From contig DQCI01000001.1 of the NCBI GenBank assembly GCA_003545125.1, positions 1 to 25,794 on the forward strand: a stretch of DNA of 25,794 nt, read 5' to 3'. How positions within the stretch are numbered: position 1 is the first letter of the stretch; the number at the start of each line of letters is the position of its first letter. This document shows, piece after piece, positions 10,516 to 24,459 of this stretch. This DNA comes from Paracoccaceae bacterium. Its GTDB lineage: Bacteria; Pseudomonadota; Alphaproteobacteria; Rhodobacterales; Rhodobacteraceae. The position numbers and the translations under genes were made by a program. The notes under the pieces are model-generated. The model saw only the letters and a program-made list of their open reading frames with translations. It was not told the origin of the DNA and did no database searches.

Positions 10516-10529
10516 TTGACCGTCGTCAT
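10516..10529 (+). promoter_or_regulatory. FNR/FixK-type box upstream of groEL
   Basis: TTGAC-CGTC-GTCAT, nine of ten half-site positions matching TTGAC-N4-GTCAA. The centre (10522.5) lies 28.5 bp before the hexamer TATCAT (10551-10556), so with a start near 10564 the box would sit at about -41.5, the class II activator position. That it serves groEL is inferred from spacing and direction. Confidence 0.65.
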
Positions 10530-10550
10530 GGCGCGCCTCGGTCAAATTGT

Positions 10551-10556
10551 TATCAT
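10551..10556 (+). promoter_or_regulatory. Probable -10 hexamer of groEL
   Basis: TATCAT, four of six matches to TATAAT in an AT-rich patch (GTCAAATTGTTATCATTCAT). No -35 TTGACA is present at 17 bp, as expected for an activator-dependent promoter. Implied transcript start is near 10563, about 37 bp before the groEL ATG. Confidence 0.55.
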
Positions 10557-10599
10557 TCATTCGCCGGTAATTGGAGGCAGGTGGTGAAGCGCCTGTGTA

Positions 10600-12228
10600 A
10601 TGATGGCCTACAAACAATTCCTCTTTCATTCCCAAGCCCGTGAGAAGCTGCTCAGCGGAACGCACACGCTCGCCGAGGCGGTGCGGGTCACTCTCGGACC
10701 GAAATCGAAGTCGGTGCTGATCCAGAGGAAATGGGGTGGGCCCATCGTCTGCAACGACGGTGTGACGATCGCCAAGGAGACGAAGCTCAAGGACGCCGAG
10801 GAGGATCTGGGCGCGCAGATGCTGCGCCAGGCTGCCGAGAAGACCAGTGAGGCGGTGGGCGATGGCACTTCGACTTCCACCCTACTGGCTGAGGCGATTT
10901 TCGCCGATGGTGTCCGCAATGTCGTCGCCGGGGCGAGTGCCATCGACTTGCGTCGCGGACTCGACCGTGGGCTCGAGGTTTCGGTGGCGCGGCTGAAAGA
11001 CCTGTCGAAGCCGGTGAAAACCCGTATCGAGAAGGTGCAGGTCGCCACAATCTCGGCCCACAACGATCCGGCCATCGGCGAGTTGGTGGCGGATGCGATC
11101 GAGAAGGTGGGCGATGAAGGCGCGATCACGGTGGAAGAGAGCAGGACAACCGAGACGGTGCTTGAAGTGGTCGAGGGCATGCGCTTCGACCGCGGCTTCA
11201 TCTCGCCCTACTTCGTCACCGAGACAGAAGGGCTGACCTGCGATCTGGAAAATGTCGCCGTCTTTCTGCACGAGAAAAAGCTCTCGACTCTCAGGCCGAT
11301 GATCCCACTTCTGGAGGCGGCGGTGCAGCAGGGCCTGCCGCTGCTCGTCATCGCCGAGGACGTGGACGACGAGGCCCTCGCGACCTTGGTGGTCAACCGG
11401 CTGCGCGGTGGCATGAAGGTGGTCGCGGTGAAGGCGCCGGGATTCGGCGACCGCCGCCGGGCGATGCTCGAAGACATCGCCGTGCTCACCGGCGCCCAGT
11501 TGGTGTCGGAAGACATGGGCATGAAGCTGGAGAACGTGACTCTCGACCATCTCGGGCGGGCCGACCGTGTTGTGGCCACCAAGGACACAACCACCATCGT
11601 CGGCGGACGCGGCGGGAAAGACGAGATCGCGGCGCGGGTGAAACAGATCCGCGCAGCCATCGCCGAGACCACCTCCGACTACGACCGGGAGAAACTCGAC
11701 GAGCGGCTCGCCAAGCTCGCCGGCGGCGTCGCGGTGATCCGCGTTGGCGCGCCCTCCGAGGCCGAGGTCAAGGCGAAGAAGGAGGCGCTGGACGACGCCA
11801 TCAGTTCCACCCGGGCGGCGGTCGAGGAGGGCATCGTTCCCGGCGGCGGACTGGCGCTCCTGCGTTGTGTCGAGCCGATCGAAGCGCTCGCGGCAGAGGC
11901 CGAGGGCGACGAGCGCACTGGGCTCACGGTTCTGGCGCGGGCGCTGTCGGCGCCCACGCGCGCCATTGCCGAGAACTCCGCCGTTGATCCCGGCGTCGTG
12001 GTCGCGCGGATGCAAGGCGGCGAGGGGGCCTTCGGTTTCGATGCGGCCAAGGGCAACTGGATCGACCTGATCGAGGCCGGCATCGTCGATCCAACCAAGG
12101 TGGTCCGCTCGGCGCTGGAAAACGCGGTCTCGGTGGCCGGTCTTCTGCTGCTGACCGAAGCGACAATGGTCGAGATCGAAGAGGACAAAGACCGGCCCGG
12201 CTACTCAGGTATGGGAGAGATGCAATGA
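10600..12228 (+). CDS. groEL: Divergent GroEL-type Hsp60 chaperonin
   Basis: 542 residues collinear with GroEL. The equatorial ATP site is intact: TLGPKSKSVL (31-40), NDGVTIAKE (52-60) and GDGTSTSTLLAEA (88-98), including the essential Asp; late motifs SSTRAAVEEGIVPGGGLAL and DPTKVVRSALENA are also present. It differs from housekeeping GroEL in the N-terminus (KQFLFHSQAREKLLSG), in IQRKWGGPIVC in place of the usual KSFGAPTIT-type segment, and in the C-terminal tail, which ends GYSGMGEMQ with no GGM repeats. No groES is next to it, so it must use a GroES from elsewhere or work without one. Two ATG codons start it (10600 and 10603); GGAGG at 10573-10577 is rather far away. It is followed by a coupled DUF3775 gene and appears controlled by the FNR-type box at 10516. 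It probably refolds proteins under the inducing stress, as a second Hsp60. Confidence 0.93.
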   Translation: MMAYKQFLFHSQAREKLLSGTHTLAEAVRVTLGPKSKSVLIQRKWGGPIVCNDGVTIAKETKLKDAEEDLGAQMLRQAAEKTSEAVGDGTSTSTLLAEAIFADGVRNVVAGASAIDLRRGLDRGLEVSVARLKDLSKPVKTRIEKVQVATISAHNDPAIGELVADAIEKVGDEGAITVEESRTTETVLEVVEGMRFDRGFISPYFVTETEGLTCDLENVAVFLHEKKLSTLRPMIPLLEAAVQQGLPLLVIAEDVDDEALATLVVNRLRGGMKVVAVKAPGFGDRRRAMLEDIAVLTGAQLVSEDMGMKLENVTLDHLGRADRVVATKDTTTIVGGRGGKDEIAARVKQIRAAIAETTSDYDREKLDERLAKLAGGVAVIRVGAPSEAEVKAKKEALDDAISSTRAAVEEGIVPGGGLALLRCVEPIEALAAEAEGDERTGLTVLARALSAPTRAIAENSAVDPGVVVARMQGGEGAFGFDAAKGNWIDLIEAGIVDPTKVVRSALENAVSVAGLLLLTEATMVEIEEDKDRPGYSGMGEMQ

Positions 12229-12671
12229 AGACGCTTTCGATAACGGATACCGGCAACGGCGGGATCGACCTTGCCCTGCCGCTCGACAAGTTGTGCAACA
12301 TCATCTCGCTCGCGCGGGAATACGCCACAAAAACAGCGTCGAGCGATCCGTCTGCCTCCGCCACCGAGGATGACGACATTGCGCTCGCCACGCTGGAAGA
12401 CCGGCCCGCTGATCCGGCAGAATCGGAGCTCAGACAGCTCATCGACGATCTCTCCGAGGATGCCCAGATTGACCTCGTGGCGCTCACCTGGTTGGCGCGC
12501 AATGACCGGTCGCTGGAAGATTGGGCTGAACTCCGGCGGCACGCGACCGAGCAGGCGACGACGCCCACGGCGAAATACCTCATGGGGCTGCCTCTGCTGT
12601 CCAGCTATCTCACCACCGGGCTTGCCGCGTTGGGGCGCGACTGTGCGGCGGAGCTTGCGGGCCGCGCCTGA
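12225..12671 (+). CDS. DUF3775-family protein
   Basis: 148 residues; the ATG overlaps the groEL stop (ATGA at 12225-12228), so the two are translationally coupled. The N-terminal part (LPLDKLCNIISLAREYATK) is followed by an acidic, low-complexity linker (residues about 40-65), then the conserved core LRQLIDDLSEDAQIDLVALTWLARNDRSLEDW and a C-terminal YLMGLPLLSSYLTTGLAALG. This arrangement is that of the DUF3775 family, small cytoplasmic proteins of unknown function. The tight coupling suggests that it acts with this chaperonin, for example as an adaptor or client; that is inference. No hairpin terminator with a T-run is evident in the 195 bp that separates it from the convergent regulator gene. 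Confidence 0.75.
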   Translation: MKTLSITDTGNGGIDLALPLDKLCNIISLAREYATKTASSDPSASATEDDDIALATLEDRPADPAESELRQLIDDLSEDAQIDLVALTWLARNDRSLEDWAELRRHATEQATTPTAKYLMGLPLLSSYLTTGLAALGRDCAAELAGRA

Positions 12672-12866
12672 CGGACAATTGCTGGCGGCGGGTAGGGCAG
12701 GGAGACGGGTCGCCTACACGGAAAGACGCTGATAGTGCTCGCCAAGCTGGTTTTTCTGTCTTCGCGCAACGAGGTCGTCCGAGCCGGTCCGCTCCGCTTG
12801 AGATCGGTGTAGGCCCTGAAACGGCCCGATCGCCGGACATCTCCAGATCATTGGGCGGGCACGGCT

Positions 12867-13760
12867 TCAGTTCATTTTTTCGACGGCGGAACTTGCCCAT
12901 ACAGGGAGCGGCGCCAACCCGTTTGTGGGCGAGGCCAGCAGCCCTGCCGCTGCTGACTTCCTACTGGTGACCATTCCGCTGATTTCGGAACCGTTCAGAC
13001 CCTTGCGGATCATGAATTTTCCGGTGTTGGCAAGATCAATGTAGCTGTGGTTTTTCAGGTCGCTGAACGACCGGCTGACGGTTTCGACCGAAAGGCCCAG
13101 GTGATCCGCAATGTCGCGACGACTCATGGGAAGACTGACGTAACCTGACGTCTGTCGCGAACTGGCAAATTCGCAGAGAAACTGGAAAAGTCGTTGGGTC
13201 GCCCTGGAATGCGTCAGGAAAAGAAGGAGATGCTCGCGCTGTTGAAGGAGGGCAGCCAGGTAGCGCCTGTACTCCTGGCGCAGGGGGATATTGACGGCAA
13301 GCGCTTGTTCGATCGTGATGCGCGGAACGGCTTTCAGAATGACAAAATCGACGGCCTCCGCTGTATAATGCCATTGCTCCACATCGGATAGCCCGACGAA
13401 TTCACCGTCCCGGGCGAATGCGAAAATCTGCCTCGTCCCGTCTGGGTCGATCGTGCAGCAACGCACCGTACCGGAGCTGACCCGGAAGATCGCATCGGCC
13501 GGCTCGCCATGCAGCAATATGGTGCTGTCGGGTTGGAAACGCTGCGTGAATGAATGTTCCTCGAAGAACGATTTCAGACAGGGGTAGTCGGCGTCGATCT
13601 CCCGCTTGGTGTGGCCGGTTGCACCGGAGCACTGTCCACGTTCCGGTATCTCGAGATGCGGGTGGGCTGCCGTCCCGGATCCCAAGTCTTCCGCCAGGAC
13701 ATGTCTCGAGGCATGGAGGTGAGAGGATGGCTTCGATTTCGGAACACCAGAACCCGTCAT
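12867..13760 (-). CDS. Crp/Fnr-family transcriptional regulator
   Basis: 297 residues. A poorly conserved N-terminal extension of about 55 residues is followed by a cyclic-nucleotide-binding-like beta-barrel (about 60-165: FTQRFQPDSTILLHGEPADAIFRVSSGTVRCC), a dimerisation helix, and a winged helix-turn-helix (about 205-250). The recognition helix LGLSVETVSRSFSDLK carries E226-x2-S229-R230, the set that FNR/FixK/Dnr proteins use to read TTGA half-sites. Cysteines occur at about 44, 61, 101, 102 and 196, not in the C-x2/3-C-x5-C arrangement of oxygen-sensing FNR, so a [4Fe-4S] cluster of the FNR type is unlikely; a FixK- or Dnr-like mode is possible. ATG 13760 is chosen over upstream ATG 13880 because AAAGGAG precedes it. 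It is the obvious candidate to bind the TTGAC-N4-GTCAA boxes in this window. Confidence 0.88.
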   Translation of the reverse strand: MTGSGVPKSKPSSHLHASRHVLAEDLGSGTAAHPHLEIPERGQCSGATGHTKREIDADYPCLKSFFEEHSFTQRFQPDSTILLHGEPADAIFRVSSGTVRCCTIDPDGTRQIFAFARDGEFVGLSDVEQWHYTAEAVDFVILKAVPRITIEQALAVNIPLRQEYRRYLAALLQQREHLLLFLTHSRATQRLFQFLCEFASSRQTSGYVSLPMSRRDIADHLGLSVETVSRSFSDLKNHSYIDLANTGKFMIRKGLNGSEISGMVTSRKSAAAGLLASPTNGLAPLPVWASSAVEKMN

Positions 13761-13811
13761 GGTTTCGCTCCTTTGGCACCCGGCCGGCCGAGTCAGACTC
13801 CTTCCCTTGGA

Positions 13812-14225: not shown

Positions 14226-14711
14226 TCATGCGGGCCGGGTCACCTTGATCTTGCGGGTGTTCTCGGCGACCTCTGCCGGCTTCGGCACTGTCACCGTCAA
14301 CACACCATCCTTCACCTCGGCCTTCACGGCGTCGGCGTCGATCTCGAACGGCAACGCAAGGCTGCGCTGGAACGCGCCGGACATGCGTTCGACGCGATGA
14401 AACTGACGGCCTTTCTCGTCTTTCCGTTCCTCGGTTTCCGATTCCTTCTCGCCCTTGATGATCAGCCGGTTGCCGAACACCTCAAGATCGACGTCTTCCT
14501 CGGTCAGCCCGGGAAGCTCGGCGGTGACGCAGATCTCTTTGTCCGTCTCGCTGACGTTGGTGCGGACCGCATAGTCCAAGCTGCGGGCCCAGAAACCGCG
14601 ATCGAAGTCCTCGAACAGGGAATCCATCTGTTTGCGGAGCGAAACCAACGGTTGGTCGGCTTCGTCCTTTCCGTGCAACCAAGATGATGGCAGCAAGTCA
14701 TGATACGACAT
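14226..14711 (-). CDS. Small heat-shock protein, Hsp20 family
   Basis: 161 residues. The alpha-crystallin domain spans about 50-145: VSETDKEICVTAELPGLTEEDVDLEV, NRLIIKGEKESE, the SGAFQRSLALPFEID segment, and the GVLTVTVPK motif at 136-144. The N-terminal arm (about 45 residues, with SWLHGKDEADQPLVSLRKQMDSLF before the domain) is of the class A bacterial type. A short C-terminal extension ends NTRKIKVTRPA, where IKV serves as the I-x-V-type tail anchor. It holds unfolding proteins in the cytoplasm for later refolding by other chaperones. GGAGGGCTGAA precedes the ATG. It is transcribed divergently from the small-protein/ZIP operon, and the two share a central FNR-type box at 14774. Hsp20 is a constant member of known stress-tolerance loci. 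Confidence 0.95.
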   Translation of the reverse strand: MSYHDLLPSSWLHGKDEADQPLVSLRKQMDSLFEDFDRGFWARSLDYAVRTNVSETDKEICVTAELPGLTEEDVDLEVFGNRLIIKGEKESETEERKDEKGRQFHRVERMSGAFQRSLALPFEIDADAVKAEVKDGVLTVTVPKPAEVAENTRKIKVTRPA

Positions 14712-14746: not shown

Positions 14747-14752
14747 ATGGTA
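14747..14752 (-). promoter_or_regulatory. Probable -10 hexamer of hsp20
   Basis: Minus strand TACCAT, beginning 28.5 bp from the centre of the box at 14774-14787, the same distance as on the groEL promoter. Implied transcript start is near 14739, 28 bp before the hsp20 ATG. Confidence 0.5.
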
Positions 14753-14773: not shown

Positions 14774-14787
14774 TTGACGGTCGTCAA
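14774..14787. promoter_or_regulatory. FNR/FixK-type box shared by hsp20 and the 14892-16158 operon
   Basis: A perfect palindrome TTGAC-GGTC-GTCAA in its two half-sites. TANNNT hexamers lie at equal distance on both sides (TACCAT at 14752-14747 on the minus strand, TAGCCT at 14809-14814 on the plus strand). One dimer could therefore activate both operons from a class II position. Confidence 0.7.
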
Positions 14788-14808: not shown

Positions 14809-14814
14809 TAGCCT
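14809..14814 (+). promoter_or_regulatory. Possible -10 hexamer of the 14892-16158 operon
   Basis: TAGCCT, keeping the conserved TA...T positions, 28.5 bp from the centre of the FNR-type box. Implied start is near 14822, giving a 70-nt leader to the ATG at 14892. Confidence 0.4.
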
Positions 14815-14891: not shown

Positions 14892-15107
14892 ATGACCCAA
14901 CTCACCCGTCACAGTCTGGAACTGCTTCTCGGGCGATTGACCGATAATACGGTCCAAGCTTTGCGGGCGACCGGGGCCAGCCTCGAGGACATCGGCCAGG
15001 CCAGGGCCTTGGCGGAGGGTAAGGCCGATATCATCGGGCAGGGAGAGCAGGATATTCCGGAGCCCGTCATGCAGGCTCTCCTCATTCTCCAGGAAGACAA
15101 AAGATGA
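14892..15107 (+). CDS. Small conserved-looking protein of unknown function (71 aa)
   Basis: 71 residues from ATG 14892, chosen because AGGGAG precedes it by about 9 nt; the longer frame from 14832 would start inside the predicted leader. The sequence is soluble, helical and without cysteines: LTRHSLELLLGRLTDNTVQ, then SLEDIGQARALAEGKADII and a C-terminal PEPVMQALLILQEDK. I do not recognise a family. Its last codons overlap the next ATG (ATGA, 15104-15107), so it is the first gene of a coupled three-gene operon with another small protein and a ZIP transporter. The shared promoter with hsp20 points to a stress role; nothing more can be said from the sequence. Confidence 0.75.
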   Translation: MTQLTRHSLELLLGRLTDNTVQALRATGASLEDIGQARALAEGKADIIGQGEQDIPEPVMQALLILQEDKR

Positions 15108-15427
15108 CACAGGAAGACCGGATGCGTCGCGCGCTTCTCGACCCGGCGTCGGAATTCGAAACGCCGGACGAGGTTTTGGCCGCTCCTTCTTTCACAGAGC
15201 CCGAGAAGATCGAGATTCTTCGGCGATGGGAATACGACGCAAGCGAGCTCAGTGTCGCAGAGGAGGAGGGCATGCCGTCCCGTCCCAGGGTGACGGTCGC
15301 GCAGGTCTTGCAGGCTCTGCACCATCTCGGCGCCGACATTGACGTTGGACACAGCCCGCCGACAAAGCAGGGTGGACTTGATCGCGCGGCGGTGAAGGTG
15401 CCGAAATCGACGGGCGGCCCGGCGTGA
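15104..15427 (+). CDS. Small hypothetical protein (107 aa)
   Basis: 107 residues. The first half is acidic and ordered (MRRALLDPASEFETPDEVL, then SFTEPEKIEILRRWEYDASEL); the segment EKIEILRRWEYDASELSVAEEEGM looks like a conserved helix pair. The second half, after VTVAQVLQALHHLG, is rich in Gly, Pro and Lys and probably disordered. Small proteins with this N-terminal pattern, to my recollection, occur next to other stress genes, but I know of no assigned function. It overlaps the gene before (ATGA) and the ZIP gene after (GTGA, 15424-15427), so all three are probably made in fixed proportion. Confidence 0.75.
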   Translation: MTQEDRMRRALLDPASEFETPDEVLAAPSFTEPEKIEILRRWEYDASELSVAEEEGMPSRPRVTVAQVLQALHHLGADIDVGHSPPTKQGGLDRAAVKVPKSTGGPA

Positions 15428-16158
15428 TCGTCGCGACCGCCCCGCTTGCGGTCTACGCAAGCCTTCTGGCCTGCGTGGTGACCACGGCCGGAATTCTGGT
15501 GGTGATGCGCTTCAAGGATTGGGGGCGCAACAACGCGACATATTTCGCCTGTTTTGCCGCTGGCGTTCTGATCGCTGTTTCCTTCCTTCATCTGGTTCCC
15601 GAAAGCCTAGCGAAGACGGCGGACGGCCCCGTGCTTCTGCTCGCCGGCTATCTGGCGATCTACATGCTCAACCGCCTGTTCTCGTCCAAGGTCTGTGACC
15701 GGCTCGGCAACCCGTCGTTTTCTATCGGTCTCATCCCGATGCTCGGGATCGGGTTTCATTCCTTCATCGACGGAACCGTCTATTCGATCGCCTTTTCGGT
15801 GAGCCCCTACACCGGGGCCTTGACCGCGCTAGGGATGGTTCTGCATGAGTTCCCGGAAGGCATCGTGACCTATATACTCCTGTTGAAGGGTGGGTTTCGC
15901 GAAACAACGGCGTTCTGGTTGGCCTTCCTCGCGGCGGCCGTGACGACGCCTGTCGGCGCGCTGTCCTCCTATGCCTGGGTCGGCGCGCAGGACGAAACGG
16001 TTCTGGGCGACCTTCTGGCCCTGTCGGCCGGCGCCCTGATCTATGTCGGGGCCTCCCATCTTCTGCCGATGGCAGAGCGGGAACCGCGCAGATACAGCTA
16101 TCTTCTCGTGGGCGCCGGCGTGGCCACCGCGATCGGCATTGTTTTCACAAAAGGGTGA
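15424..16158 (+). CDS. ZIP-family divalent metal transporter
   Basis: 244 residues with about eight hydrophobic helices. The two metal-binding signatures of ZIP proteins are intact: HSFIDG at 112-117 (helix IV) and HEFPEG at 141-146 (helix V). The variable loop between helices III and IV is short (FSSKVCDRLGNPSFS) without a His-rich cluster. ZIP proteins move zinc, iron or manganese into the cytoplasm; the substrate here cannot be told from sequence. The start is GTG 15424, overlapping the stop of the preceding gene. Its place in an operon divergent from hsp20 suggests that metal supply is part of the same response, perhaps zinc for FtsH and the RNase Z-like protein or iron together with the Feo genes; that link is inference. 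Confidence 0.9.
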   Translation: MIVATAPLAVYASLLACVVTTAGILVVMRFKDWGRNNATYFACFAAGVLIAVSFLHLVPESLAKTADGPVLLLAGYLAIYMLNRLFSSKVCDRLGNPSFSIGLIPMLGIGFHSFIDGTVYSIAFSVSPYTGALTALGMVLHEFPEGIVTYILLLKGGFRETTAFWLAFLAAAVTTPVGALSSYAWVGAQDETVLGDLLALSAGALIYVGASHLLPMAEREPRRYSYLLVGAGVATAIGIVFTKG

Positions 16159-16283: not shown

Positions 16284-16862
16284 CTATGTCGAGGGATCCT
16301 GCGGTGTCACCCAGTCGCGCTGGAACCCCTCGGCGTCGCCATACTCCACGAATTCCGCGTAGTGCCCGTACACCCCGGTCATCAACTTTGCATGTTTGAT
16401 CGGGCACCAGTGCCTTTCGGTACGGGCCGCGATTTCCCGGACATAGGCCAGCAGGCCATTCGCATAGGCACAATACACGCAGTTCAGTTTCTCGAGCGCA
16501 TTGAGATAGGACAGGTGATGGCGGTCGAACGTGATATACTCCGCCCGGCGCACCTTCTCGATCCGGTATACGGGAAAACAGATGAGTTGGTAGAGGGACG
16601 CGAACAAGTCCAGCAGCACGAAGGGAACAATGACTAAAAAGATGAAGGGTGCCGTCAACACGACAAGCGGCCGTGCCTGCAGGATGTAGGTCGAGAGCTC
16701 TTTCTTGAAAGCGCGGTGCCGCGCGCGCACCTCCTGCTCGAAGGTGACTCGCCCGAGTTCCAGCCGGAACGTGAACGATTTTCGGCGGCGCTCCAGCTCC
16801 TCTGCCAGTTCTTCTTCCAGATTCTGGATCCGTGCGACCGGGCTTGCCACTTTGTCAGTCAA
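16284..16862 (-). CDS. Membrane protein of unknown function with CxxC motif, next to ftsH
   Basis: 192 residues. Residues 10-55 form a charged, probably coiled-coil helix (QNLEEELAEELERRRKSF); 66-98 are hydrophobic and probably span the membrane once or as a hairpin (PLVVLTAPFIFLVIVPFVLLD). The C-terminal part carries LNCVYCAYANGLLAYVREI with C128-x2-C131, followed by HWCPIKHA with C153 and H157, a set that could bind a metal or form a redox pair. I do not recognise a named family. It begins 28 bp after the ftsH stop and is the last gene of the minus-strand cluster, so it may be an FtsH partner in the membrane. No signal peptide is seen. Confidence 0.7.
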   Translation of the reverse strand: MTDKVASPVARIQNLEEELAEELERRRKSFTFRLELGRVTFEQEVRARHRAFKKELSTYILQARPLVVLTAPFIFLVIVPFVLLDLFASLYQLICFPVYRIEKVRRAEYITFDRHHLSYLNALEKLNCVYCAYANGLLAYVREIAARTERHWCPIKHAKLMTGVYGHYAEFVEYGDAEGFQRDWVTPQDPST

Positions 16863-16890
16863 TTGTCCGTCTCCCGATCTTCATTGCCGT

Positions 16891-18741
16891 TCACTGCGCC
16901 GCCCGGACCGGCTCCTGCATCTCGGGCGGCCCGGGCGCAATACGTTTGATCGGTGCAAATTCCGCCGGCGTTATGGTTTCGTGTTCCAGCAGAAGGTCGG
17001 CCCCGGCTTTCAGATCCGCCAGGTGTTCGGACAGGATGCTCTTGGCCTGGAGATAGGCCTCTTCGATCAATTGACGCACGGCCAGGTCGACCTCGCGCGC
17101 GGTCTCCTCGGCATAGTCTCTGGCGACCATGCCCCGGCCGTACTGGCCCAGGAATTGGCCCGGCTTGTCTTCCAGAACGGCCTGCCCAACGCTTGCGTCC
17201 ATGCCGAACCGCGTCACACATTCCCGCGCAATGTCGGTCGCTTTCGCCAGGTCGTCCGAGGCCCCGGTCGAGATCTCCCCGAAAATCAGCTCCTCAGCAG
17301 CGCGTCCCGCCATGAGGACGATCATGCGGTCCTTCAACTCCGGGAACGTGATGAGGAAGCGGTCTTCGGTCGGGCGTTGCATCGTGTAGCCGAGCGCCCC
17401 GATCGAGCGCGGAATGATCGACACCTTGTGCACCGGGTCGGCATGGGCGACTTTGGCGGCGGCGAGCGCATGTCCCATCTCGTGATGCGCCACGCGTTTG
17501 CGCTCCGCCGGGCTGAGAACGCGCGACTTGCGTTCGATCCCGGCCACGATCCGTTCAACGGCCGCGGTGAGGTCGGCCATTGTTACCTGGTCTCCCTCCC
17601 GGCGGGTCGCGAGGATCGCCGCCTCGTTCACGAGATTGGCCAAGTCAGCTCCGGTGAAGCCGGTGGTGATGGCAGCGACCTGGTCCAGATCCACCTCAGC
17701 CGCGATGGCCACGCCCTTGCAATGCACCGCAAGGATCGCGGCGCGCCCTTTCCGTTCCGGACGGTCCACGGCGATCTGCCGATCAAACCGCCCCGCCCGC
17801 AGAAGCGCCGGATCCAGTATTTCCGGACGGTTCGTTGCGGCCAGGAGCACAATGCCGACACGAGGATCGAACCCGTCCAGTTCCGACAGAAGCTGGTTCA
17901 GGGTCTGTTCTTTCTCGCCCCCGCCGCCATAGCCCGAGACCGCGGAGCGCGCCCGCCCCAGCGCGTCCAATTCGTCGATGAAGATGATGCACGGGGCGGC
18001 CTGGCGCGCCTGTTCGAACAGATCCCGCACCCGCGCGGCACCGACGCCGACGAACATCTCGACAAATTCGGAGCCGGAGATCGAAAAGAAGGGCACCTCT
18101 GCCTCACCCGCCACCGCCCGCGCCAGGAGCGTCTTGCCCGTGCCCGGCGGGCCGACCAGGAGAATGCCCTTCGGGACATGTGCGCCGAGGCGGCTGTACT
18201 TTTCGCGATCCTTGAGGAAGGAGACGATTTCCTGCAATTCTCTCTTGGCTTCATCCACGCCGGCGACATCGTCGAAGGTGACGCCGGTCTTCGTCTCCAG
18301 ATAGACCTTCGCCTTTGACTTGCCGATGTTCACAAGACTGCCGACCCCTGTGCCGCCGGACATACGCCGCATGAGGAACATCCACACCACCGCGAAGACG
18401 AGGACCGGCACGACCCAGGAGATCACGGTGGTCAACCAGTTCTGGTCGGAGCCGCCGGTGAAGGCGACATCATATTGCTCCAGTTCGGCGGCGAAATCGG
18501 GGTCGACCCGTTGGACGACGAAGAATTCCTTCCCATCCACAGCATCGATCAGCCGCCCTTCGACCCTGCTCTCGGTCACCGTCATTTCCGCAACCTTGCC
18601 CTTCTCGAGATAGGACAGGAATTCGCTATATTGCAGAGGCATCACGCTTTGATACCCCAGCCAGAGCTGCAGACCCAACCACAACAACCCGGCCATGATC
18701 CAGAAGCTCCAGTTGAATTTCTTTTGTTTGTCCATGGCCAT
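16891..18741 (-). CDS. ftsH: FtsH-type membrane AAA metalloprotease (accessory copy)
   Basis: 616 residues, full length for the family. TM1 at about 13-30, a periplasmic domain to about 100, TM2 at about 103-124. The AAA domain has Walker A GPPGTGKT (197-204), Walker [10 protein letters not shown] (about 252-260) and the second region of homology [20 protein letters not shown] (302-321) with the arginine finger. The zinc protease motif is HEMGH at 420-424; the usual bacterial form is HEAGH, so Met replaces Ala. The third ligand aspartate is in [13 protein letters not shown]. It degrades misfolded membrane and cytoplasmic proteins using ATP. No good Shine-Dalgarno precedes ATG 18741; ATG 18735 is an alternative. 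FtsH copies are standard in heat-resistance loci; the housekeeping gene is expected elsewhere. Confidence 0.95.
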
Positions 18742-18804
18742 AATCCGTTGGGAGGGTTTGTTTTTTCCGTGTAGCGGCGCCGGGACAAGCGGGTGCGCGA
18801 ATGA

Positions 18805-19152
18805 CTACGATTCCGCCCGGGCAACCTCGTCAAAGGCCCGCAGCGCCTCGACGCCGCAGGCTGCCGACAACCCGCCGCCCATGAGGATCGCGACGCCGAT
18901 CATCTCGGCGGCCTCCTGGCGGGTCGCGCCTTCGCGGAAAATGGCCTCTGCATGATGGGAGATGCTTCCCCCGCAGCGGCAGGAAACCGCGATTGCGAAG
19001 GCCGTCAGTTCCTTGAATTTCGTCGGCAGTTCGCCGTCTGCCGTTGCATCCATGACGAGCCGTCCGAAGGCCGCCGCCGTTTTCGGCTGAAGTTCCGCCA
19101 GATCCGCGTAGCCGGCTTGATAGAGCTCAGCGAGATCCCGGTAGGTGTCCAT
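18805..19152 (-). CDS. Carboxymuconolactone decarboxylase/AhpD-like protein
   Basis: 115 residues from ATG 19152, chosen because GGGAGATTTGAA precedes it; the longer frame to 19275 would overlap the hdeD end. The core is the CMD/AhpD helical fold: LPTKFKELTAFAIAVSCRCGGSISHHAEAIF followed by GATRQEAAEMIGVAILMGG. AhpD-type members use C-x2-C-x3/4-H as a peroxidase/reductase site; here the motif reads C-GGS-..-HH, so the second Cys is Ser, although another Cys lies two residues before the first. It may therefore lack AhpD-like disulfide chemistry. It lies between hdeD (106 bp) and ftsH (63 bp), same strand. Role: possibly peroxide or redox defence, by family and context only. Confidence 0.75.
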   Translation of the reverse strand: MDTYRDLAELYQAGYADLAELQPKTAAAFGRLVMDATADGELPTKFKELTAFAIAVSCRCGGSISHHAEAIFREGATRQEAAEMIGVAILMGGGLSAACGVEALRAFDEVARAES

Positions 19153-19258
19153 TTCAAATCTCCCAATGTGACTTTCGCAGGGACTTCGGGCTGTCACGTG
19201 CGGATTCGTTTGAGATCGGTCGAATTGCGCGTGCCCCTCAACCGCGCCGCCGCCGCCC

Positions 19259-19831
19259 TCAGCCCAGTGGGTCAATCGGGCCGGATCGGGCGATCATGAC
19301 CAGAGCCAATCCGGTGCTCAGCATGTCAAAGCCGACCAGCACGCCGATGAGCACCGCCGAGGCCTCCGGCAGGGCAAACAGGATGAAGCCCGCGAACGCG
19401 AGGCTGACGACCGCCGACAGGATGCCCCATCCCCAACCAGGCGCAGGGCGCAGCCAAAGCGAGAACGAGATCTGTGCCGCGCCGGAAAGGAAGAAGACCA
19501 AGGCGATCAGCAAGGTGAGCGCAATCAACCCCTGCTGCGGATCCAGAATGAGCATCAAACCCGCGGCGAAGATGAGAACACCGGGCACCATCTCCCACAG
19601 GAAAAGCCCTGTCCTGCGGAGCGAAAAGGCCCCGAGCATGGTGACGGCGCCGCTGGCCGCCAGGAGCCAGCCCACAATGACCCCGACCACCAGTGAGCTG
19701 ACCGTGGGCACGACCAGTGCAGCGACCCCCAGCAGGATCAGAAAGATGCCGCCCCATGTCATGCCGCTGCGCAGTTTGGCGGGCGAGAAGATGTCGCGGG
19801 TGTTGTCGAAATCGAAGTGGTCGGTGCGCAT
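19259..19831 (-). CDS. hdeD: HdeD-family membrane protein
   Basis: 190 residues with six hydrophobic helices, grouped in pairs as in the HdeD/DUF308 family: TWGGIFLILLGVAALVVP, VVGVIVGWLLAASGAVTML, LWEMVPGVLIFAAGLMLILDP, LTLLIALVFFLSGAAQIS, WGILSAVVSLAFAGFILFALP and VLIGVLVGFDMLSTGLALVMIA. The two internal halves repeat the G-x-L/V-x3-G...G-x6-R pattern. E. coli HdeD protects against acid at high cell density; its mechanism is unknown. The N-terminal cytoplasmic tail (HFDFDNTRDIFSPAKLRSG) is longer than usual. It follows the general-stress-like gene by 64 bp and precedes the CMD-like gene. HdeD is a hallmark of the transmissible stress-tolerance locus, where it also sits near ftsH. Confidence 0.88.
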   Translation of the reverse strand: MRTDHFDFDNTRDIFSPAKLRSGMTWGGIFLILLGVAALVVPTVSSLVVGVIVGWLLAASGAVTMLGAFSLRRTGLFLWEMVPGVLIFAAGLMLILDPQQGLIALTLLIALVFFLSGAAQISFSLWLRPAPGWGWGILSAVVSLAFAGFILFALPEASAVLIGVLVGFDMLSTGLALVMIARSGPIDPLG

Positions 19832-19895
19832 GACCTTCGTGCCTTTCCTTCATTGAGTGCAAGGCGGCGCCCGCGCCGGACGGCCTGCGGTCTTC

Positions 19896-20477
19896 TTATT
19901 GGCTCCAGGCATGGACATGGACGTCGCGCCCGGAATGCCCTTTCAGGATCTTGACCGCGAGCGCCTCCTTGTCCTCGTCCACCGTGCGGACCCACAGGAG
20001 GATGCCGCCGTTTTCAATCTGGTCGGCGTAGTAGTCCTTGTGGTGCCGACCCACCCGCCGCGCGAGCAAGATGCCGAGAACGGCGGCCGGCCCACCGCCG
20101 ACGGAAATCGCCGCTATCGACGCTGCCAATGTGCTGGCAGGCGTCAACATGGCGGCCATGGCGATGTAGGACCCGAGATAGAAGAATCCGCCGACGATGG
20201 CGCCTTCGTATTCCCCGATCGCTTCCTCCGACACGAAGGCCGCGCGCGGCGCGTCCGGATCGTCTTCAAGATCTTCCGCCCGCCAATAGGCCGCGCCCAG
20301 CTTTTCCTTCAATGCCTTCCTGTCGCCCAAGAGGCTGAGGTCGTAGCGGCTGAAGCCGTGCATGCGCAGATCATAGAGCGCAGCGCGAAGTGTGTCGTAG
20401 CTACCGAAAACGCCAACCGCTTCGGGCAGATCGATGACAGTCGTGTCGGGGTGAGATGTCTGAAGTTTCGTCGTCAT
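19896..20477 (-). CDS. General-stress-like membrane-associated protein
   Basis: 193 residues from ATG 20477, preceded by TTCGGGAGGCTTCCC; a longer frame to 20543 would start inside the FNR-type box and is rejected. The N-terminal part resembles the general-stress/DUF1269-like fold (VGVFGSYDTLRAALYDLRMHGF followed by SRYDLSLLG), a central glycine-rich hydrophobic region (about 95-150: GAIVGGFFYLGSYIAMAAML and AASIAAISVGGGPAAVLGILLA) could form one or two membrane helices, and the C-terminus (GGILLWVRTVDEDKEALAVKIL, ending in HSGRDVHVH) looks like a second small alpha/beta unit. Family assignment is tentative and the function is unknown. It is first in the minus-strand cluster 20477-16284 (this gene, hdeD, CMD-like, ftsH, CxxC protein), with its own FNR-type promoter. 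Confidence 0.7.
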   Translation of the reverse strand: MTTKLQTSHPDTTVIDLPEAVGVFGSYDTLRAALYDLRMHGFSRYDLSLLGDRKALKEKLGAAYWRAEDLEDDPDAPRAAFVSEEAIGEYEGAIVGGFFYLGSYIAMAAMLTPASTLAASIAAISVGGGPAAVLGILLARRVGRHHKDYYADQIENGGILLWVRTVDEDKEALAVKILKGHSGRDVHVHAWSQ

Positions 20478-20502: not shown

Positions 20503-20508
20503 ATCGTA
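20503..20508 (-). promoter_or_regulatory. Probable -10 hexamer of the 20477-16284 cluster
   Basis: Minus strand TACGAT, starting 28.5 bp from the centre of the box at 20530-20543, the same spacing as for groEL and hsp20. Implied transcript start near 20496, about 19 bp before the ATG. Confidence 0.5.
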
Positions 20509-20529: not shown

Positions 20530-20543
20530 TTGACGAAGGTCAA
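20530..20543 (-). promoter_or_regulatory. FNR/FixK-type box of the 20477-16284 cluster
   Basis: TTGAC-GAAG-GTCAA, perfect half-sites, between the cbpM stop and the start of the general-stress-like gene. The only correctly placed -10 hexamer is on the minus strand (TACGAT), so the box probably drives the hdeD-ftsH cluster. Confidence 0.7.
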
Positions 20544-20573: not shown

Positions 20574-20918
20574 CTACCGGTCGTTCGCCGGCATCCGGAT
20601 GACGACCGGAAGGGTGTCTTCGAACTGGTGCAAACGGCGTTTCAGCCTGGCATTCTCGTCGACGAGGGATAGCACCACGGCGATTCCCGGCAGGTTGATC
20701 CGTAAATCCCCCTGCAGACGCTGAACCCGGCGAATGATCGTTATGCTGGAACTGTCGAACCGCGCGCCCGGATGGTCTTCGTCGACCGGTTCCAGGATGC
20801 CCTCGTCGATAAGCTCGAGAATCCATTCGGCCGAACACCCGCTGATGCGGCAGAGATCGATCAACGACATGGGCTCAACTATTTCGCTTACCTGGATCAC
20901 GGCTTTGCTACGTGTCAT
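20574..20918 (-). CDS. cbpM: Chaperone modulator CbpM-like (MerR-type HTH)
   Basis: 114 residues. Residues about 15-50 form a MerR-like helix-turn-helix (MSLIDLCRISGCSAEWILELIDEG, then ILEP), followed by FDSSSITIIRRVQRLQGDL, the usual CbpM pattern, and a heptad-like helix LVDENARLKRRLHQFEDTLP that should dimerise. In E. coli CbpM binds the J-domain of CbpA and blocks its stimulation of DnaK. Here the gene starts 3 bp after cbpA ends, same strand, as in known cbpAM pairs. The pairing supports both assignments. It ends about 31 bp before the FNR-type box of the next cluster. Confidence 0.88.
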   Translation of the reverse strand: MTRSKAVIQVSEIVEPMSLIDLCRISGCSAEWILELIDEGILEPVDEDHPGARFDSSSITIIRRVQRLQGDLRINLPGIAVVLSLVDENARLKRRLHQFEDTLPVVIRMPANDR

Positions 20919-20921
20919 GGC

Positions 20922-21881
20922 CTATCCCTCCATCGTGACGCGCGGGTCGAAATCCGCCTCGCGGGCCATCTCCCGGTACAATTCTCTTGCCTTCTCGGTC
21001 TCTGTCGGCGGGACGACGATCTTGAGAACGGCAATGAGATTGCCTGGCGATTTACCGGGTATCCCGCGCGCTTTCAGCCGTAATTTCTTCCCGGTCTGCG
21101 TGTGTTTCGGAATGGTCAGCTGAACCTTCCCGGCGGGAGTGCGCATGTCGACACGTGCGCCAAGCGCGGCCTCCCAAGGGGTGATTGGCACATCCATGTG
21201 AACGTCGCGCCCCTCGACGTGAAATCCCGGCTTGTCGCGGATCGTCACCTCAAGGAAGAGATCTCCCGGCTTCCCCTGTCCGAGGCCCGGTGCACCCTGT
21301 CCCGACAACCGTATGTGTTGGCCGTCGGATACGCCCTTCGGGATGGTGACGCGGATAGCGCGTTCGCGCAGCACAACATGGCCTTGCGGGTCCAATTCCG
21401 GCTTGCGCAGGGTGAAGTCGCGCGAACCGCCGTCATAGGCTTCCTGCAGATCAATCGTGATCCGGGCATGGTGATCCTGGCCCGACGCGTGAAACGCGGG
21501 CCGGGGTCCGGCCGTCTGGTCGAACCCGCCACGGCGCGAGAACAGCTCGTCGAAGAACGCGCCGAACTGGTCCGGATCCGCCTGCGTATAGCCGCCGCCC
21601 GAAAACTCGAACCCGTCGTCCCAGTCCGGCGGCGGGCGAAACGCTTCGCCCTCCTGCCAGGTCTTGCCCAGCCGGTCATAGGCGGCGCGTTTCTCGGGAT
21701 CCTGCAGGACCTCATAGGCTTCGCCGACATCCTTGAATTTCTGCTCCACCTCCGCCGCATCCGGACCGGTGTTCACGTCAGGATGATACTTTCGGACCAG
21801 CTTGCGGTAAGCCTTCTTGATCTGATCCTGTGTCGCATCGCGTTCGATATCGAGGATCTTGTAATAGTCCCGGTATTCCAT
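20922..21881 (-). CDS. cbpA: DnaJ-like co-chaperone CbpA
   Basis: 319 residues. J-domain at 1-70 with the HPD tripeptide at 33-35 (KYHPDVN), then a G/F-rich linker (about 85-115: GFEFSGGGYTQADPDQFGAFF) and two C-terminal beta-sandwich domains (ARITIDLQEAYDGGSRDFTL; HIRLSGQGAPGLGQGKPGDLFLEV; PITPWEAALGARVDM). There is no zinc-finger region with CxxCxGxG repeats, which separates CbpA from DnaJ. It stimulates DnaK and delivers unfolded clients. GAGGCAGAC precedes the ATG. It lies between an 85-residue protein gene (30 bp upstream) and cbpM. Well-preserved length and motifs suggest an active protein. Confidence 0.93.
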   Translation of the reverse strand: MEYRDYYKILDIERDATQDQIKKAYRKLVRKYHPDVNTGPDAAEVEQKFKDVGEAYEVLQDPEKRAAYDRLGKTWQEGEAFRPPPDWDDGFEFSGGGYTQADPDQFGAFFDELFSRRGGFDQTAGPRPAFHASGQDHHARITIDLQEAYDGGSRDFTLRKPELDPQGHVVLRERAIRVTIPKGVSDGQHIRLSGQGAPGLGQGKPGDLFLEVTIRDKPGFHVEGRDVHMDVPITPWEAALGARVDMRTPAGKVQLTIPKHTQTGKKLRLKARGIPGKSPGNLIAVLKIVVPPTETEKARELYREMAREADFDPRVTMEG

Positions 21882-21911
21882 GTCTGCCTCACCGCGCCGG
21901 ATCCGGCGCCG

Positions 21912-22169
21912 TCACACCGTCTCCAGTTCCAAGCTGTCCAGCCAGTACCTGACGGAGTGTTCAATCGGGCCGACATGACGCCCTTGCGCCTCCACCGCGG
22001 CGATTTCGCGCGCCATTTCCTCTGTCAGGACCTTGTGACGCGTTGCCAATTCGCTGGGCGTAAGCTGGTGTTCGCAAGACAACAAGCTCTTGAGTTTCTG
22101 GCGCGCAACGGCCTCGTGCAAGTGCGCCTCGAATTCGGAGAGTCTGGAATTGAGGTCCGTTCCGGTCAT
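21912..22169 (-). CDS. Small helical protein of unknown function upstream of cbpA (85 aa)
   Basis: 85 residues from ATG 22169. AAAGGAG lies 7 nt before that codon, whereas the in-frame ATG 22175 is nearly on top of it, so the later start is preferred. The protein is highly charged and helical (RLSEFEAHLHEAVARQKLK, then LATRHKVLTEEMAREIAAVEAQG), probably a coiled-coil dimer, with one Cys. The C-terminal part (HVGPIEHSVRYWLDSLELE) is more conserved-looking. No family recognised. It is the first gene of the cbpA-cbpM operon, so a regulatory or adaptor role for the co-chaperone is possible but unproven. Confidence 0.65.
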   Translation of the reverse strand: MTGTDLNSRLSEFEAHLHEAVARQKLKSLLSCEHQLTPSELATRHKVLTEEMAREIAAVEAQGRHVGPIEHSVRYWLDSLELETV

Positions 22170-22201
22170 GACCATTCTCCTTTCGCACTGTTTTCCTTGC
22201 C

Positions 22202-22207
22202 AGTATG
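22202..22207 (-). promoter_or_regulatory. Possible -10 hexamer of the cbpA operon
   Basis: Minus strand CATACT, five of six matches to TATACT and four of six to TATAAT, starting 28.5 bp from the centre of the half-conserved box at 22229-22242. Implied transcript start near 22195. Confidence 0.3.
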
Positions 22208-22228
22208 GCACCGCCTTCTGTCACCAAA

Positions 22229-22242
22229 TTGACCAAACGCAA
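22229..22242 (-). promoter_or_regulatory. Degenerate FNR-type box upstream of the cbpA operon
   Basis: On the minus strand TTGCG-TTTG-GTCAA: one perfect half-site and one with three of five positions. It is the weakest box of the series, accepted mainly because its distance to CATACT equals that of the stronger examples. Confidence 0.35.
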
Positions 22243-22454: not shown

Positions 22455-22889
22455 ATGATGGAGCAAGACTCAAAAGCCAGCCGGGCGGCGAAACAGACTG
22501 CCGCGATGGTTGTTGGCACTGTCCCGATCATCATCGGCGTTCTGGCGCTCACCAGCTTGGTGACCGCGGCAGTCCCGCCGCAGACGATCTGCGACCTGCT
22601 GCCGATGGAAAGCCTTCTCGCCCCGTTTCTGGGTGGTCTGGTCGGCAGCATCGCCGCCGGGCATCCGGTCGTCAGCTACGTCCTGGCGGGCGAGCTTCAG
22701 GCGGCGGGCGTCGGCCTTGCGACGACAACCGCGCTGATCGTCAGTTGGGTCACCGTGGGGATCTTTCATCTCCCGGTCGAGGCTGCGATCCTGGGCGCGC
22801 GTTTCGCCATCTGGCGTAACGTCATCTGCTTCGTCCTGGCCATCGCGACGGGATATGCGGTCGCATTTCTGATGTTGGTCGGAGGGTGA
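22455..22889 (+). CDS. YraQ/ArsP-type permease, N-terminal half
   Basis: 144 residues with four hydrophobic helices. It matches the first half of COG0701/DUF318-type permeases: a first helix AAMVVGTVPIIIGVLAL, the re-entrant-like GGLVGSIAAGHPVVSYVLAGEL, the helix ALIVSWVTVGIFHLP, and EAAILGARFAIWRNVICF. Two adjacent ATG codons (22455, 22458) follow GAGGTGG; either may be used. The gene ends 3 bp before the second-half gene. In the common form both halves are in one protein of about 300-350 residues; here they are separate, as also seen in some other organisms. Substrate unknown (ArsP relatives export organoarsenicals). No FNR-type box at the right spacing is seen in the 240 bp upstream. Confidence 0.75.
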   Translation: MMEQDSKASRAAKQTAAMVVGTVPIIIGVLALTSLVTAAVPPQTICDLLPMESLLAPFLGGLVGSIAAGHPVVSYVLAGELQAAGVGLATTTALIVSWVTVGIFHLPVEAAILGARFAIWRNVICFVLAIATGYAVAFLMLVGG

Positions 22890-22892
22890 GGA

Positions 22893-23438
22893 ATGGGCGC
22901 GACCCGGGGCACGGCTGTTCCACGCAAGATCATCGGGGCATGGCTCTTCCCGGCGGCCGTGGCCGCGCTCTACGCTGCCACCGCGTTGTTCAGCCCCGCT
23001 ATCGCGGCGCAGGCGCTCAAGTCGTTCGGGGCATTGCTGGCCAATATCACCCCGGCCATGGTTCTTGTCTTCTGCCTGATATTCCTGACCAACCTGTTCA
23101 TCGACCGAAGATGGCTCGCCCGGCACCTGGGAAAGACAAGCGGCGTTCGCGGCTGGGTGTTTGCGATCGTTGCCGGGATCCTCTCCGCCGGCCCGCTCTA
23201 TGCATGGTACCCCCTATTGGGCGATTTGAAGGCCAAGGGGATGAGAGGCGAGCTGATCGCAGCGTTCCTCTACGCCCGCGCATTGAAATTGCCTCTTCTG
23301 CCGCTGATGGTGCAATACTTCGGCATGGCATTCACGGTGACGCTGTCGCTCTGCATCATCGTGTTCTCGGTGATCAGTGGCCTGCTGGTGAAGGCAATCC
23401 CCGGCATTGAGGATGCAGACGCGGGCGGCAATCGGTGA
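22893..23438 (+). CDS. YraQ/ArsP-type permease, C-terminal half
   Basis: 181 residues with about five hydrophobic helices. It carries the second-half signature: ITPAMVLVFCLIFLTNLFID, then GILSAGPLYAWYPLLGDLKAKG and IAAFLYARALKLPLLPLMVQYFG. The GP-x-Y-x2-YPL element mirrors the AGHP element of the first-half protein, consistent with an inverted-repeat transporter assembled from two subunits. GGAGGGTGAGGA precedes ATG 22893 and the gene is 3 bp after its partner, so the two should be co-translated. The last 12 residues are hydrophilic. The adjacent Usp gene has its own putative promoter. Confidence 0.78.
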   Translation: MGATRGTAVPRKIIGAWLFPAAVAALYAATALFSPAIAAQALKSFGALLANITPAMVLVFCLIFLTNLFIDRRWLARHLGKTSGVRGWVFAIVAGILSAGPLYAWYPLLGDLKAKGMRGELIAAFLYARALKLPLLPLMVQYFGMAFTVTLSLCIIVFSVISGLLVKAIPGIEDADAGGNR

Positions 23439-23445
23439 GGGCGCC

Positions 23446-23459
23446 TTGGCCCTGGTCAA
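23446..23459 (+). promoter_or_regulatory. FNR-type box upstream of the universal stress protein gene
   Basis: TTGGC-CCTG-GTCAA: nine of ten positions of TTGAC-N4-GTCAA. A TAGAGT hexamer (23484-23489) starts 31.5 bp from its centre, slightly further than at the other boxes. Confidence 0.5.
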
Positions 23460-23483
23460 ACGGGTCCTTCAGGAAAGGTCGGT

Positions 23484-23489
23484 TAGAGT
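23484..23489 (+). promoter_or_regulatory. Possible -10 hexamer of the Usp gene
   Basis: TAGAGT, keeping TA...T. The implied start near 23496 would leave about 20 nt to the ATG at 23517, including the ribosome binding site GGAAGGAAACAGG. Confidence 0.35.
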
Positions 23490-23516
23490 CACGCAAGCAA
23501 CGGAAGGAAACAGGAT

Positions 23517-24371
23517 ATGAAAAACGCCACAATCTTCACCTTGGTCGGCAAAGATTTTTCTGAGGACCAACTCCGGCCTTTGATCGACAGTGCGCGCGCC
23601 GATGACGCCCACCTGACTGTTCTTGCGCTCGGGGCAACGCCTCAAGTGCCGGTCTATGCCGCCAATATCCAACCCTACGCGGCAGCGATCCTCCCCGACG
23701 ACTGGCAAAAAGATTTCCTGGTCGAGAACGCGGCACTTACTGCCACGGCCAAGGAGGTCGGAGCCCTACTTCAGCGCGAAGCGGTCTCGGGCGATGTGTC
23801 GGTGCTCAACTGCGAACCGTCACGGATCGCGGCCAGGGTCGCGCGCCGGGCGGTGGTCTGCGATCTGTGCGTACTCTCGCCCGGATTGCGCGCGCGCGAG
23901 GATGTATTCCATCCGGCGCTGCAAGGCGTTTTGTTTGAATCGCCGGTTGCGGCTGTCCTGAACTATGAAACGTTGAAAACGCCTGCCAAAATCGACAGGG
24001 TGTTCGTGGCCTGGGATTCCGGGTTGCCCTCCGCACGGGCGGTGCAACGAGCGATGGCGATGCTGCGGCAGGCACGGGAAGTGACCATCGGCATTTTCGA
24101 TCCGGTCATGACCGAGAACCGCGACGGCGAGAACCCGGGGTCAGAGCTGGCGGAATGGCTCAGTCGGCATGGCTGCAACGTGCGGGTCAACCAGTATCCC
24201 AGCGGCGGAAAGGAAATCGGCGATTGCATTGTCGGGCGGGCAAAGGAAACCGGCGCGGATCTCGTGGTCATGGGGGCCTACGGCCATTCCAGGCTGCGCG
24301 AAGATCTCTTTGGCGGAACGACGCGAACCATGATCGAACAGCGGGAGCTGGCCGTGCTTCTTGCCCACTGA
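23517..24371 (+). CDS. Tandem universal stress protein (UspA family)
   Basis: 284 residues with two Usp domains. The N-terminal one (about 1-145) is degenerate; the C-terminal one (about 155-284: KIDRVFVAWDSGLPSARAVQRAM and further) has the nucleotide motif GAYGHSRLREDLFGGTTRTMI, i.e. G-x2-G-x9-G-T, so ATP binding in that half is expected. The last residues (RELAVLLAH) fit the usual Usp C-terminal strand. Usp proteins help survival during growth arrest and anaerobic or oxidative stress; several Usp genes of Pseudomonas are controlled by the FNR-type regulator Anr, which fits the box at 23446. GGAAGGAAACAGG precedes the ATG. A GC hairpin follows at 24374-24387. Confidence 0.9.
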   Translation: MKNATIFTLVGKDFSEDQLRPLIDSARADDAHLTVLALGATPQVPVYAANIQPYAAAILPDDWQKDFLVENAALTATAKEVGALLQREAVSGDVSVLNCEPSRIAARVARRAVVCDLCVLSPGLRAREDVFHPALQGVLFESPVAAVLNYETLKTPAKIDRVFVAWDSGLPSARAVQRAMAMLRQAREVTIGIFDPVMTENRDGENPGSELAEWLSRHGCNVRVNQYPSGGKEIGDCIVGRAKETGADLVVMGAYGHSRLREDLFGGTTRTMIEQRELAVLLAH

Positions 24372-24373
24372 CC

Positions 24374-24387
24374 CCCGGCGGCGGGGA
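24374..24387 (+). terminator. Possible GC hairpin after the Usp gene
   Basis: CCCC-CGGCGG-CGGGG beginning three bases after the Usp stop can fold with a short loop. No T-run follows, so it is a weak candidate. Confidence 0.25.
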
Positions 24388-24417
24388 TCGGAGGGACCAC
24401 ATCGGCGCGGTGTTCGA

Positions 24418-24431
24418 TTGACGCGCGTCAT
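24418..24431 (+). promoter_or_regulatory. FNR-type box upstream of the Feo genes
   Basis: TTGAC-GCGC-GTCAT: nine of ten half-site positions. TAAGGT (24454-24459) starts 29.5 bp from the centre, within 1 bp of the groEL arrangement. FNR activation of feo is established in E. coli, which makes control of the Feo genes credible here. Confidence 0.6.
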
Positions 24432-24453
24432 ATCGGCTTGCGTTGTATCTGGG

Positions 24454-24459
24454 TAAGGT
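24454..24459 (+). promoter_or_regulatory. Possible -10 hexamer of the Feo genes
   Basis: TAAGGT, keeping TA...T, in the expected window downstream of the box at 24418. Implied transcript start near 24466, about 34 bp before the TTG start. Confidence 0.4.

Follow-up and report, generated by a model that had tools for sequence, protein, structure and literature searches.

Along a 25.8 kb stretch of the genome of a marine-type Paracoccaceae bacterium (Alphaproteobacteria; contig DQCI01000001.1), which as a whole we call the window, palindromic boxes of the pattern TTGAC-N4-GTCAA stand before genes for a GroEL paralogue, Hsp20, a universal stress protein (Usp), a DtxR-FeoA protein, and other functions. 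These boxes are probably the operators of class II promoters of the FNR/FixK type, belonging to one real and conserved regulon, with a FixK-like protein encoded at 12867-13760 as a candidate activator that would overlap in action with FnrL. A first-pass annotation of this DNA had proposed a single FNR/FixK-type class II design across the operons, and this core claim is supported by the conservation of the boxes and by their register with -10-like hexamers in related genomes.

Boxes were scored as matches at the 10 half-site positions, the gene map of the window was made by hand (87% coding), and the whole genome (4.35 Mb) was searched by pattern scans, with the reversed pattern as control. Six boxes were found where the first-pass annotation had placed them, with the scores and genes listed here:

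10516..10529, forward strand: box TTGACCGTCGTCAT, 9/10, before the GroEL paralogue, 84 nt ahead of the start
14774..14787, no strand assigned: box TTGACGGTCGTCAA, 10/10, between two divergent transcription units, 76 nt before Hsp20
20530..20543, no strand assigned: box TTGACGAAGGTCAA, 10/10, before the operon of the 19896 gene
22229..22242, no strand assigned: weak box TTGACCAAACGCAA, 8/10
23446..23459, forward strand: box TTGGCCCTGGTCAA, 9/10, before Usp
24418..24431, forward strand: box TTGACGCGCGTCAT, 9/10, before the DtxR-FeoA gene

The FNR-class core, TTGA-N6-TCAA, is matched at 8/8 positions in two of the six and at 7/8 in the remaining four. On the gene map, all five boxes with at most one mismatch are intergenic, as had been claimed, and so are 4 of the 17 two-mismatch matches (3985, 14003, 19210, 22229). 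Matches with up to two mismatches number 22 in the window, for a mean of 7.0 in shuffled sequence, and 22 was reached in none of 100 shuffles. One of them, a degenerate box at 19210 before the CMD gene (TTGAGATCGGTCGA, 8/10), has no in-register -10 hexamer and was left uncounted, while in Aliishimia ponticola (G164) the box at this place is well formed. Further left, the LonB-type protease gene (7550-10030) has no box of this kind near its start. Genome-wide, the exact box occurs 8 times versus once for the reversed control, and boxes with at most one mismatch occur 100 times versus 50, so that about half of the one-mismatch matches in the genome are due to chance. The window contains two of the 8 exact boxes and five of the 100, with 0.59 of the 100 expected (Poisson P 4e-4). 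The chance half is one of two points that speak for a highly improbable reading, which takes the TTGAC words for ordinary sigma-70 -35 hexamers or for palindromes arisen by chance, with sigma-32, HrcA or constitutive control of the genes; the other is that TTGACA is the consensus of the sigma-70 -35 element.

The geometry of the promoters bears on this reading directly. Four TANNNT hexamers lie at exactly 28.5 bp from the centre of a box, as first claimed:

10551..10556, forward strand: -10-like TATCAT, for box 10516, 5/6 to TATAAT
14747..14752, reverse strand: -10-like TACCAT, for Hsp20, from box 14774
14809..14814, forward strand: -10-like TAGCCT, for the rightward unit, from box 14774
20503..20508, reverse strand: -10-like TACGAT, for box 20530

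The two further hexamers that had been placed within 3 bp of this register are likewise there, TAAGGT at 24454 (29.5 bp from the centre of box 24418) and TAGAGT at 23484 (31.5 bp from the centre of box 23446, outside the main register). Box 22229 has no TANNNT; its in-register hexamer, CATACT (22202-22207), lies on the left side, towards the 21912 gene, and matches TATAAT at 4/6, and a permease gene to the right also faces this box, some 200 bp off. All these hexamers are on the sides that face the presumed targets, namely GroEL, Hsp20 together with the 14892 gene, the 19896 operon, 21912-DnaJ-CbpM, Usp, and DtxR-FeoA, and, box 14774 with its two facing units aside, the far sides of the boxes contain no TANNNT at 27.5-31.5 bp. 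The original estimate that TANNNT would occur by chance once in 64 positions proved conservative, the figure being about 1 in 173 at 64% GC, with 0.0015 observed per position and strand in the window; the judgement that the register exceeds chance stands, as none of 2000 trials in which the letters of the 12 flanks were shuffled gave four matches at 28.5 bp, or at any one offset. Counted from the -10 hexamer, the left half-site begins 35 bp upstream, a distance too great for a -35 element, and on this geometry the assignment of the boxes as -35 hexamers is rejected.

The same register is found in related genomes. The test covered 34 distinct boxes of the form TTGA[CT]N4[AG]TCAA in 18 loci around relatives of the regulator (L033-L050), along with L154 and L183-L185 (islands of G164 and of Litorivita pollutaquae, G219). 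TANNNT occurs at 28.5 bp on 9 of the 68 sides, with 0.65 expected from shuffles and no more than two at other offsets, some of these promoters being orthologous to those of the window, so that the events are not fully independent. The composite of box, N21 and TANNNT has 10 matches in 52 loci (1.01 Mb), and the reversed-box control has none. The genes that follow it are, at single loci, an ATP synthase alpha/beta-type subunit (L034), a phasin (L038), CMD (L046) and Hsp20 (L047); in L154 the 19896 gene, CMD (then FtsH), Hsp20 and Usp; and elsewhere an HlyD-type gene (L184) and one further gene in L174. Across L033-L048 (317 kb) there are 9 exact and 31 one-mismatch boxes, versus 0-2 and 0-17 for eight control palindromes.

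As to conservation at orthologous promoters, boxes recur before the hsp20, GroEL-paralogue, dtxR-feoA and 19896 genes. One example is the 19896 gene itself, which is present in 32 of 394 family genomes. The comparison covered 28 orthologue loci, and left out our own genome, two genomes that have the regulator, and four distant homologues; a core box of at least 7/8 is present within 250 nt in 24 of the 28, in 22 of them at 53-91 nt before the start. Two are atypical, L130 with the box at 160 nt and L143 with two weak boxes, at 220 and 90 nt; the four loci with no box are L145, L147, L148 and L151, and none was found at the four distant homologues (32-37% identity, L117-L120). Thus 19896, a gene of unknown function, appears to be a conserved gene tied to an FNR-type box. 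Another example is Hsp20, for which orthology is claimed for four near full-length matches of at least 55% identity (own, G164, G428, G171), all four with a box. In G164 (75% identity) it lies at 76 nt, as in the window, with TATGGT in register; in G428 (58%) it is also at 76 nt, in the TTGAT spelling (TTGATGCAGATCAA), with no in-register TANNNT; and G171 (55%) has, 87 nt upstream of the aligned part, a 7/8 box with an in-register TAAACT. More broadly, 13 of 17 Hsp20 loci scanned, our own included, have a core match of at least 7/8 within about 330 nt; those that do not are L205, L199, L206 and L196, the last a match of 62% over just 76 residues. A third example is the orthologue of the GroEL paralogue in G435 (78% identity), whose start lies 86 nt downstream of the box TTGATGGGCGTCAA, compared with 84 nt in the window; this box has no in-register TANNNT. 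Among other groEL loci, 19 of 22 contain no 7/8 match in 700 nt, and those that do are L219 (TTGAACTTGTTCAA), L227 and L228. In G276 each of the two DtxR-FeoA orthologues is preceded by a box, at 109-111 nt from the aligned part, with no in-register TANNNT, and as orthologues are present in 2 of 21 genomes searched, our own included, this promoter rests on few cases. Box, register and location thus recur across genera, and chance palindromes are rejected on register and conservation. For control by sigma-32 or HrcA, searched with one pattern each, the best match in the window to CIRCE (the controlling inverted repeat of chaperone expression) has 6 mismatches, and the single loose sigma-32-like match is within the dnaJ gene, with none intergenic, which is consistent with the first-pass statement that this is not a classical sigma-32 response.

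The regulator encoded at 12867-13760 has the rhizobial FixK2 (4i2o) as its best match of solved structure, and its NCBIfam scores are 108.4 bits for FixK (NF050806) and 53 bits for FnrL, both below the cut-off of 300. Its alignment consisted of 120 sequences (the window protein and listed relatives) of 989 hits. Residues E226, S229 and R230 of the recognition helix are present in 120/120, which places the protein in the E..SR specificity class of FNR/FixK; these residues are specificity determinants, a point that PMC4999443 treats in general terms. The FNR-type cysteine motif, C-x2-4-C-x5-8-C, sought in the first 90 residues, is present in none of the 120 sequences. The label FNR-type, given in the first-pass annotation, therefore fits the DNA site, and fits the sensor less. 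An RCC motif (residues 100-102) is found in 67 of the 75 closest relatives among those aligned, and this vicinal cysteine pair is perhaps a candidate thiol switch. At E 1e-45, 4 of the 394 family genomes have the regulator, each of them together with the 19896 gene; the regulator-bearing family genomes include A. ponticola, L. pollutaquae and Primorskyibacter sedentarius (G375). Regulator and 19896 gene lie 28-33 kb apart on the same contig in the former two and on separate contigs in the third. G171 has a 31% match to the regulator near its cluster. G435 encodes two regulator paralogues, on two contigs (L047, L048).

The spelling of the boxes may connect them to this gene. The 16 regulator-bearing genomes contain 92 exact TTGAC and 199 exact TTGAT boxes, and 11 of the 92 versus 2 of the 199 are near the regulator (Fisher P 9e-5), near being within 10 kb, or within the whole window for our own genome, and L049/L050 (35-36% identity), included in the register test, being excluded here. 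With our own genome removed, the counts are 9/84 versus 2/192 (P 5e-4). No such bias is seen around 19896 in 29 genomes that lack the regulator, the counts being 4/167 versus 4/264 (P 0.72). Regulator-bearing genomes do not have more TTGAC boxes overall, this idea being rejected by the totals (92 boxes for the 16 genomes with it, 167 for the 29 without, about 5.8 per genome); just the local density differs. In 62 loci of more distant relatives, mostly of Bradyrhizobium and kin, there are 74 exact TTGAT and 9 exact TTGAC boxes. The enrichment near the regulator suggests a TTGAC-reading protein tied to the neighbourhood of the regulator, within the limits set by shared descent and differing gene content.

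A number of observations weigh against a regulon centred on this protein. FnrL is encoded elsewhere in the genome (L016; 440.8 bits, cut-off 300), and on another contig (L002, contig C61) an exact TTGAC-N4-GTCAA separates a COX1-family gene from a divergent Usp gene. In most genomes with a boxed 19896 promoter no match to the regulator was obtained at the E-value limits applied (1e-45, where few candidates per genome were scored, or 1e-30), and the regulator is thus not needed for the box. The 24 boxes before 19896 orthologues in such genomes have two hexamers at 28.5, three at 29.5 and two at 30.5 bp, a looser register with a peak equally high at some offset in 51% of shuffles, and, for 12 boxes on five other stretches of our own genome, TANNNT is absent from both sides at 27.5-31.5 bp; the strict register thus marks regulator-linked islands more than FNR-type sites generally. 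Finally, the related sites share descent, so that the P values overstate independence. It is possible, if less likely than not, that FnrL alone, an oxygen-labile iron-sulphur (Fe-S) regulator, reads the boxes and that the FixK-like gene of the island controls something else. The retention of the 19896 box in genomes lacking the local regulator agrees with this, and so do published FnrL sites, which include TTGAC forms, one of them at feoABC, where the site mapped by chromatin immunoprecipitation is TTGACgcggATCAA (PMC2908626), and the activation by FnrL of Usp genes described for Dinoroseobacter shibae (PMC5398030). The enrichment near the regulator of TTGAC, not TTGAT, and the absence of this bias where the regulator is absent argue against FnrL acting alone.

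An NO-responsive (nitric oxide) Crp/Fnr protein of the Dnr type is an unlikely reader of the TTGAC boxes. The precedent is in D. shibae, where sites of the forms TTGAC-N4-GTTAA and TTAAC-N4-GTCAA are described for FnrL and Dnr control of denitrification genes (PMC5398030), and in our genome a UbiD gene has an exact TTGAC box ahead of it, while a Crp-type regulator gene close by on that contig has another. These two boxes, however, have no in-register TANNNT, the scans of the window gave no denitrification gene, and no NO sensor was identified. A further exact box of this genome, at 9136 of L191 (contig C168), lies between CoA-ligase and cation P-type ATPase genes and also has no in-register hexamer.

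Under the preferred reading of one FNR/FixK-type regulon, an activator dimer of the FNR/FixK class of the Crp/Fnr superfamily would sit on each TTGAC-N4-GTCAA palindrome at about -41.5 and would help a sigma-70-type RNA polymerase to start from a weak -10 hexamer, as in class II activation, with box 14774 serving two divergent promoters. The FixK-like protein would act as the main activator and would share these sites with FnrL; for the role of main activator we give the local protein about an even chance. Low oxygen or redox state would be the signal; as the regulator lacks the FNR cysteines, the signal would have to reach it by some other route, for example through regulation of the gene that encodes it or through the conserved vicinal cysteine pair. 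The regulon would correspond to an accessory island (GroEL paralogue, Hsp20, 19896-DUF308-CMD-FtsH, DnaJ/CbpM, Usp and DtxR-FeoA); in relatives, the ATP synthase alpha/beta-type subunit and the phasin also have the composite promoter before them. The genes of this region are as follows, with families assigned by Pfam unless stated:

10600..12228, forward strand: GroEL paralogue (Cpn60_TCP1), 53% identical to the other GroEL of the genome (contig C5)
12225..12671, forward strand: DUF3775 protein, overlapping the GroEL stop, presumed same operon
12867..13760, reverse strand: FixK-like Crp/Fnr regulator (HTH_Crp_2 and cNMP_binding), candidate activator
14226..14711, reverse strand: Hsp20
14892..16158, forward strand: small genes at 14892 and 15104, and at 15424 a transporter of the ZIP type (Zip)
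16284..20477, reverse strand: presumed operon of the 19896 gene, DUF308 (HdeD-type), CMD/AhpD-like, FtsH and the 16284 gene
20574..22169, reverse strand: CbpM-like MerR gene (MerR_2; NCBIfam CbpM below cut-off), DnaJ/CbpA gene (DnaJ, DnaJ_C) and the 21912 gene
23517..24371, forward strand: Usp
24500..25537, forward strand: protein with DtxR-type (Fe_dep_repr_C) and FeoA domains

The 16284..20477 operon is presumed because of short gaps and a common strand, and its DUF308 gene is one that we take to be HdeD-type. No Pfam or NCBIfam match was obtained, in the scans run, for the 19896 gene (19896-20477) or for the small genes 14892 and 15104. Elsewhere in the window, at about 2031-5540, long reading frames on opposite strands meet and look interrupted; they are acyl-CoA ligase-like by reading, and a frameshift or an assembly fault is possible.

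Parts of this arrangement have precedents, and FNR-type control of single stress genes (Usp, Hsp20) and of feo is already published. One example is the FnrL regulon of Rhodobacter sphaeroides and D. shibae, which shares the TTGA-N6-TCAA sites and has feoABC and Usp genes among its targets, and for which one D. shibae site is reported at 39.5 bp from one and 41.5 bp from the other of two divergent starts (PMC5398030); it differs in the Fe-S sensor, and chaperonin, DnaJ, FtsH and HdeD-type genes are not known to us among its targets (PMC2908626, PMC5398030). Another example is rhizobial FixK/FixK2, to which the local regulator is linked by the structural match and by the lack of the FNR cysteine motif, and the core regulon predicted for FixK includes Hsp20 (PMC2908626). 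The local protein, however, falls far short of the FixK cut-off, and its neighbourhood is biased to TTGAC, whereas that of the distant relatives is mostly TTGAT. The Rhodobacterales genomes covered in PMC4999443 are given as having FnrN alone and no FixK. Likewise, an Hsp20-type gene of Rhizobium leguminosarum with a TTGA-N6-TCAA box shows an FnrN-dependent, approximately 50-fold microaerobic induction, but it is described as a single gene with two boxes and no island (PMC11784457). A further likeness, by description, is the lxa locus of Burkholderia cenocepacia, a block of Usp and heat-shock genes induced by low oxygen, with an FNR-type regulator proposed to be in control; that locus belongs to another class of bacteria, and the regulator gene is outside the block (PMC6127331, PMC9104464, PMC3759415). 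In the openly licensed papers searched we found none on a set of GroEL paralogue, DnaJ/CbpM, FtsH and HdeD-type genes under FNR/FixK control beside a FixK-like regulator, and a stress-gene set so broad, next to its own regulator gene, looks new.

In conclusion, we tentatively suggest that a clade of FixK-like proteins without an Fe-S cluster, perhaps switched through the RCC motif and having a TTGAC-biased operator, travels with a stress island (a spare chaperonin, DnaJ/CbpM, FtsH, Hsp20 and ferrous-iron uptake) under a single hypoxia or redox switch, apart from heat shock. With a promoter rule as simple as this (box, 21 bp, TANNNT), the rest of the regulon can be looked for, and the rule lends itself to reporter tests. 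If the proposal is true, bacteria can keep a second set of genes for protein quality control on a switch of the oxygen or redox type rather than on a heat switch.

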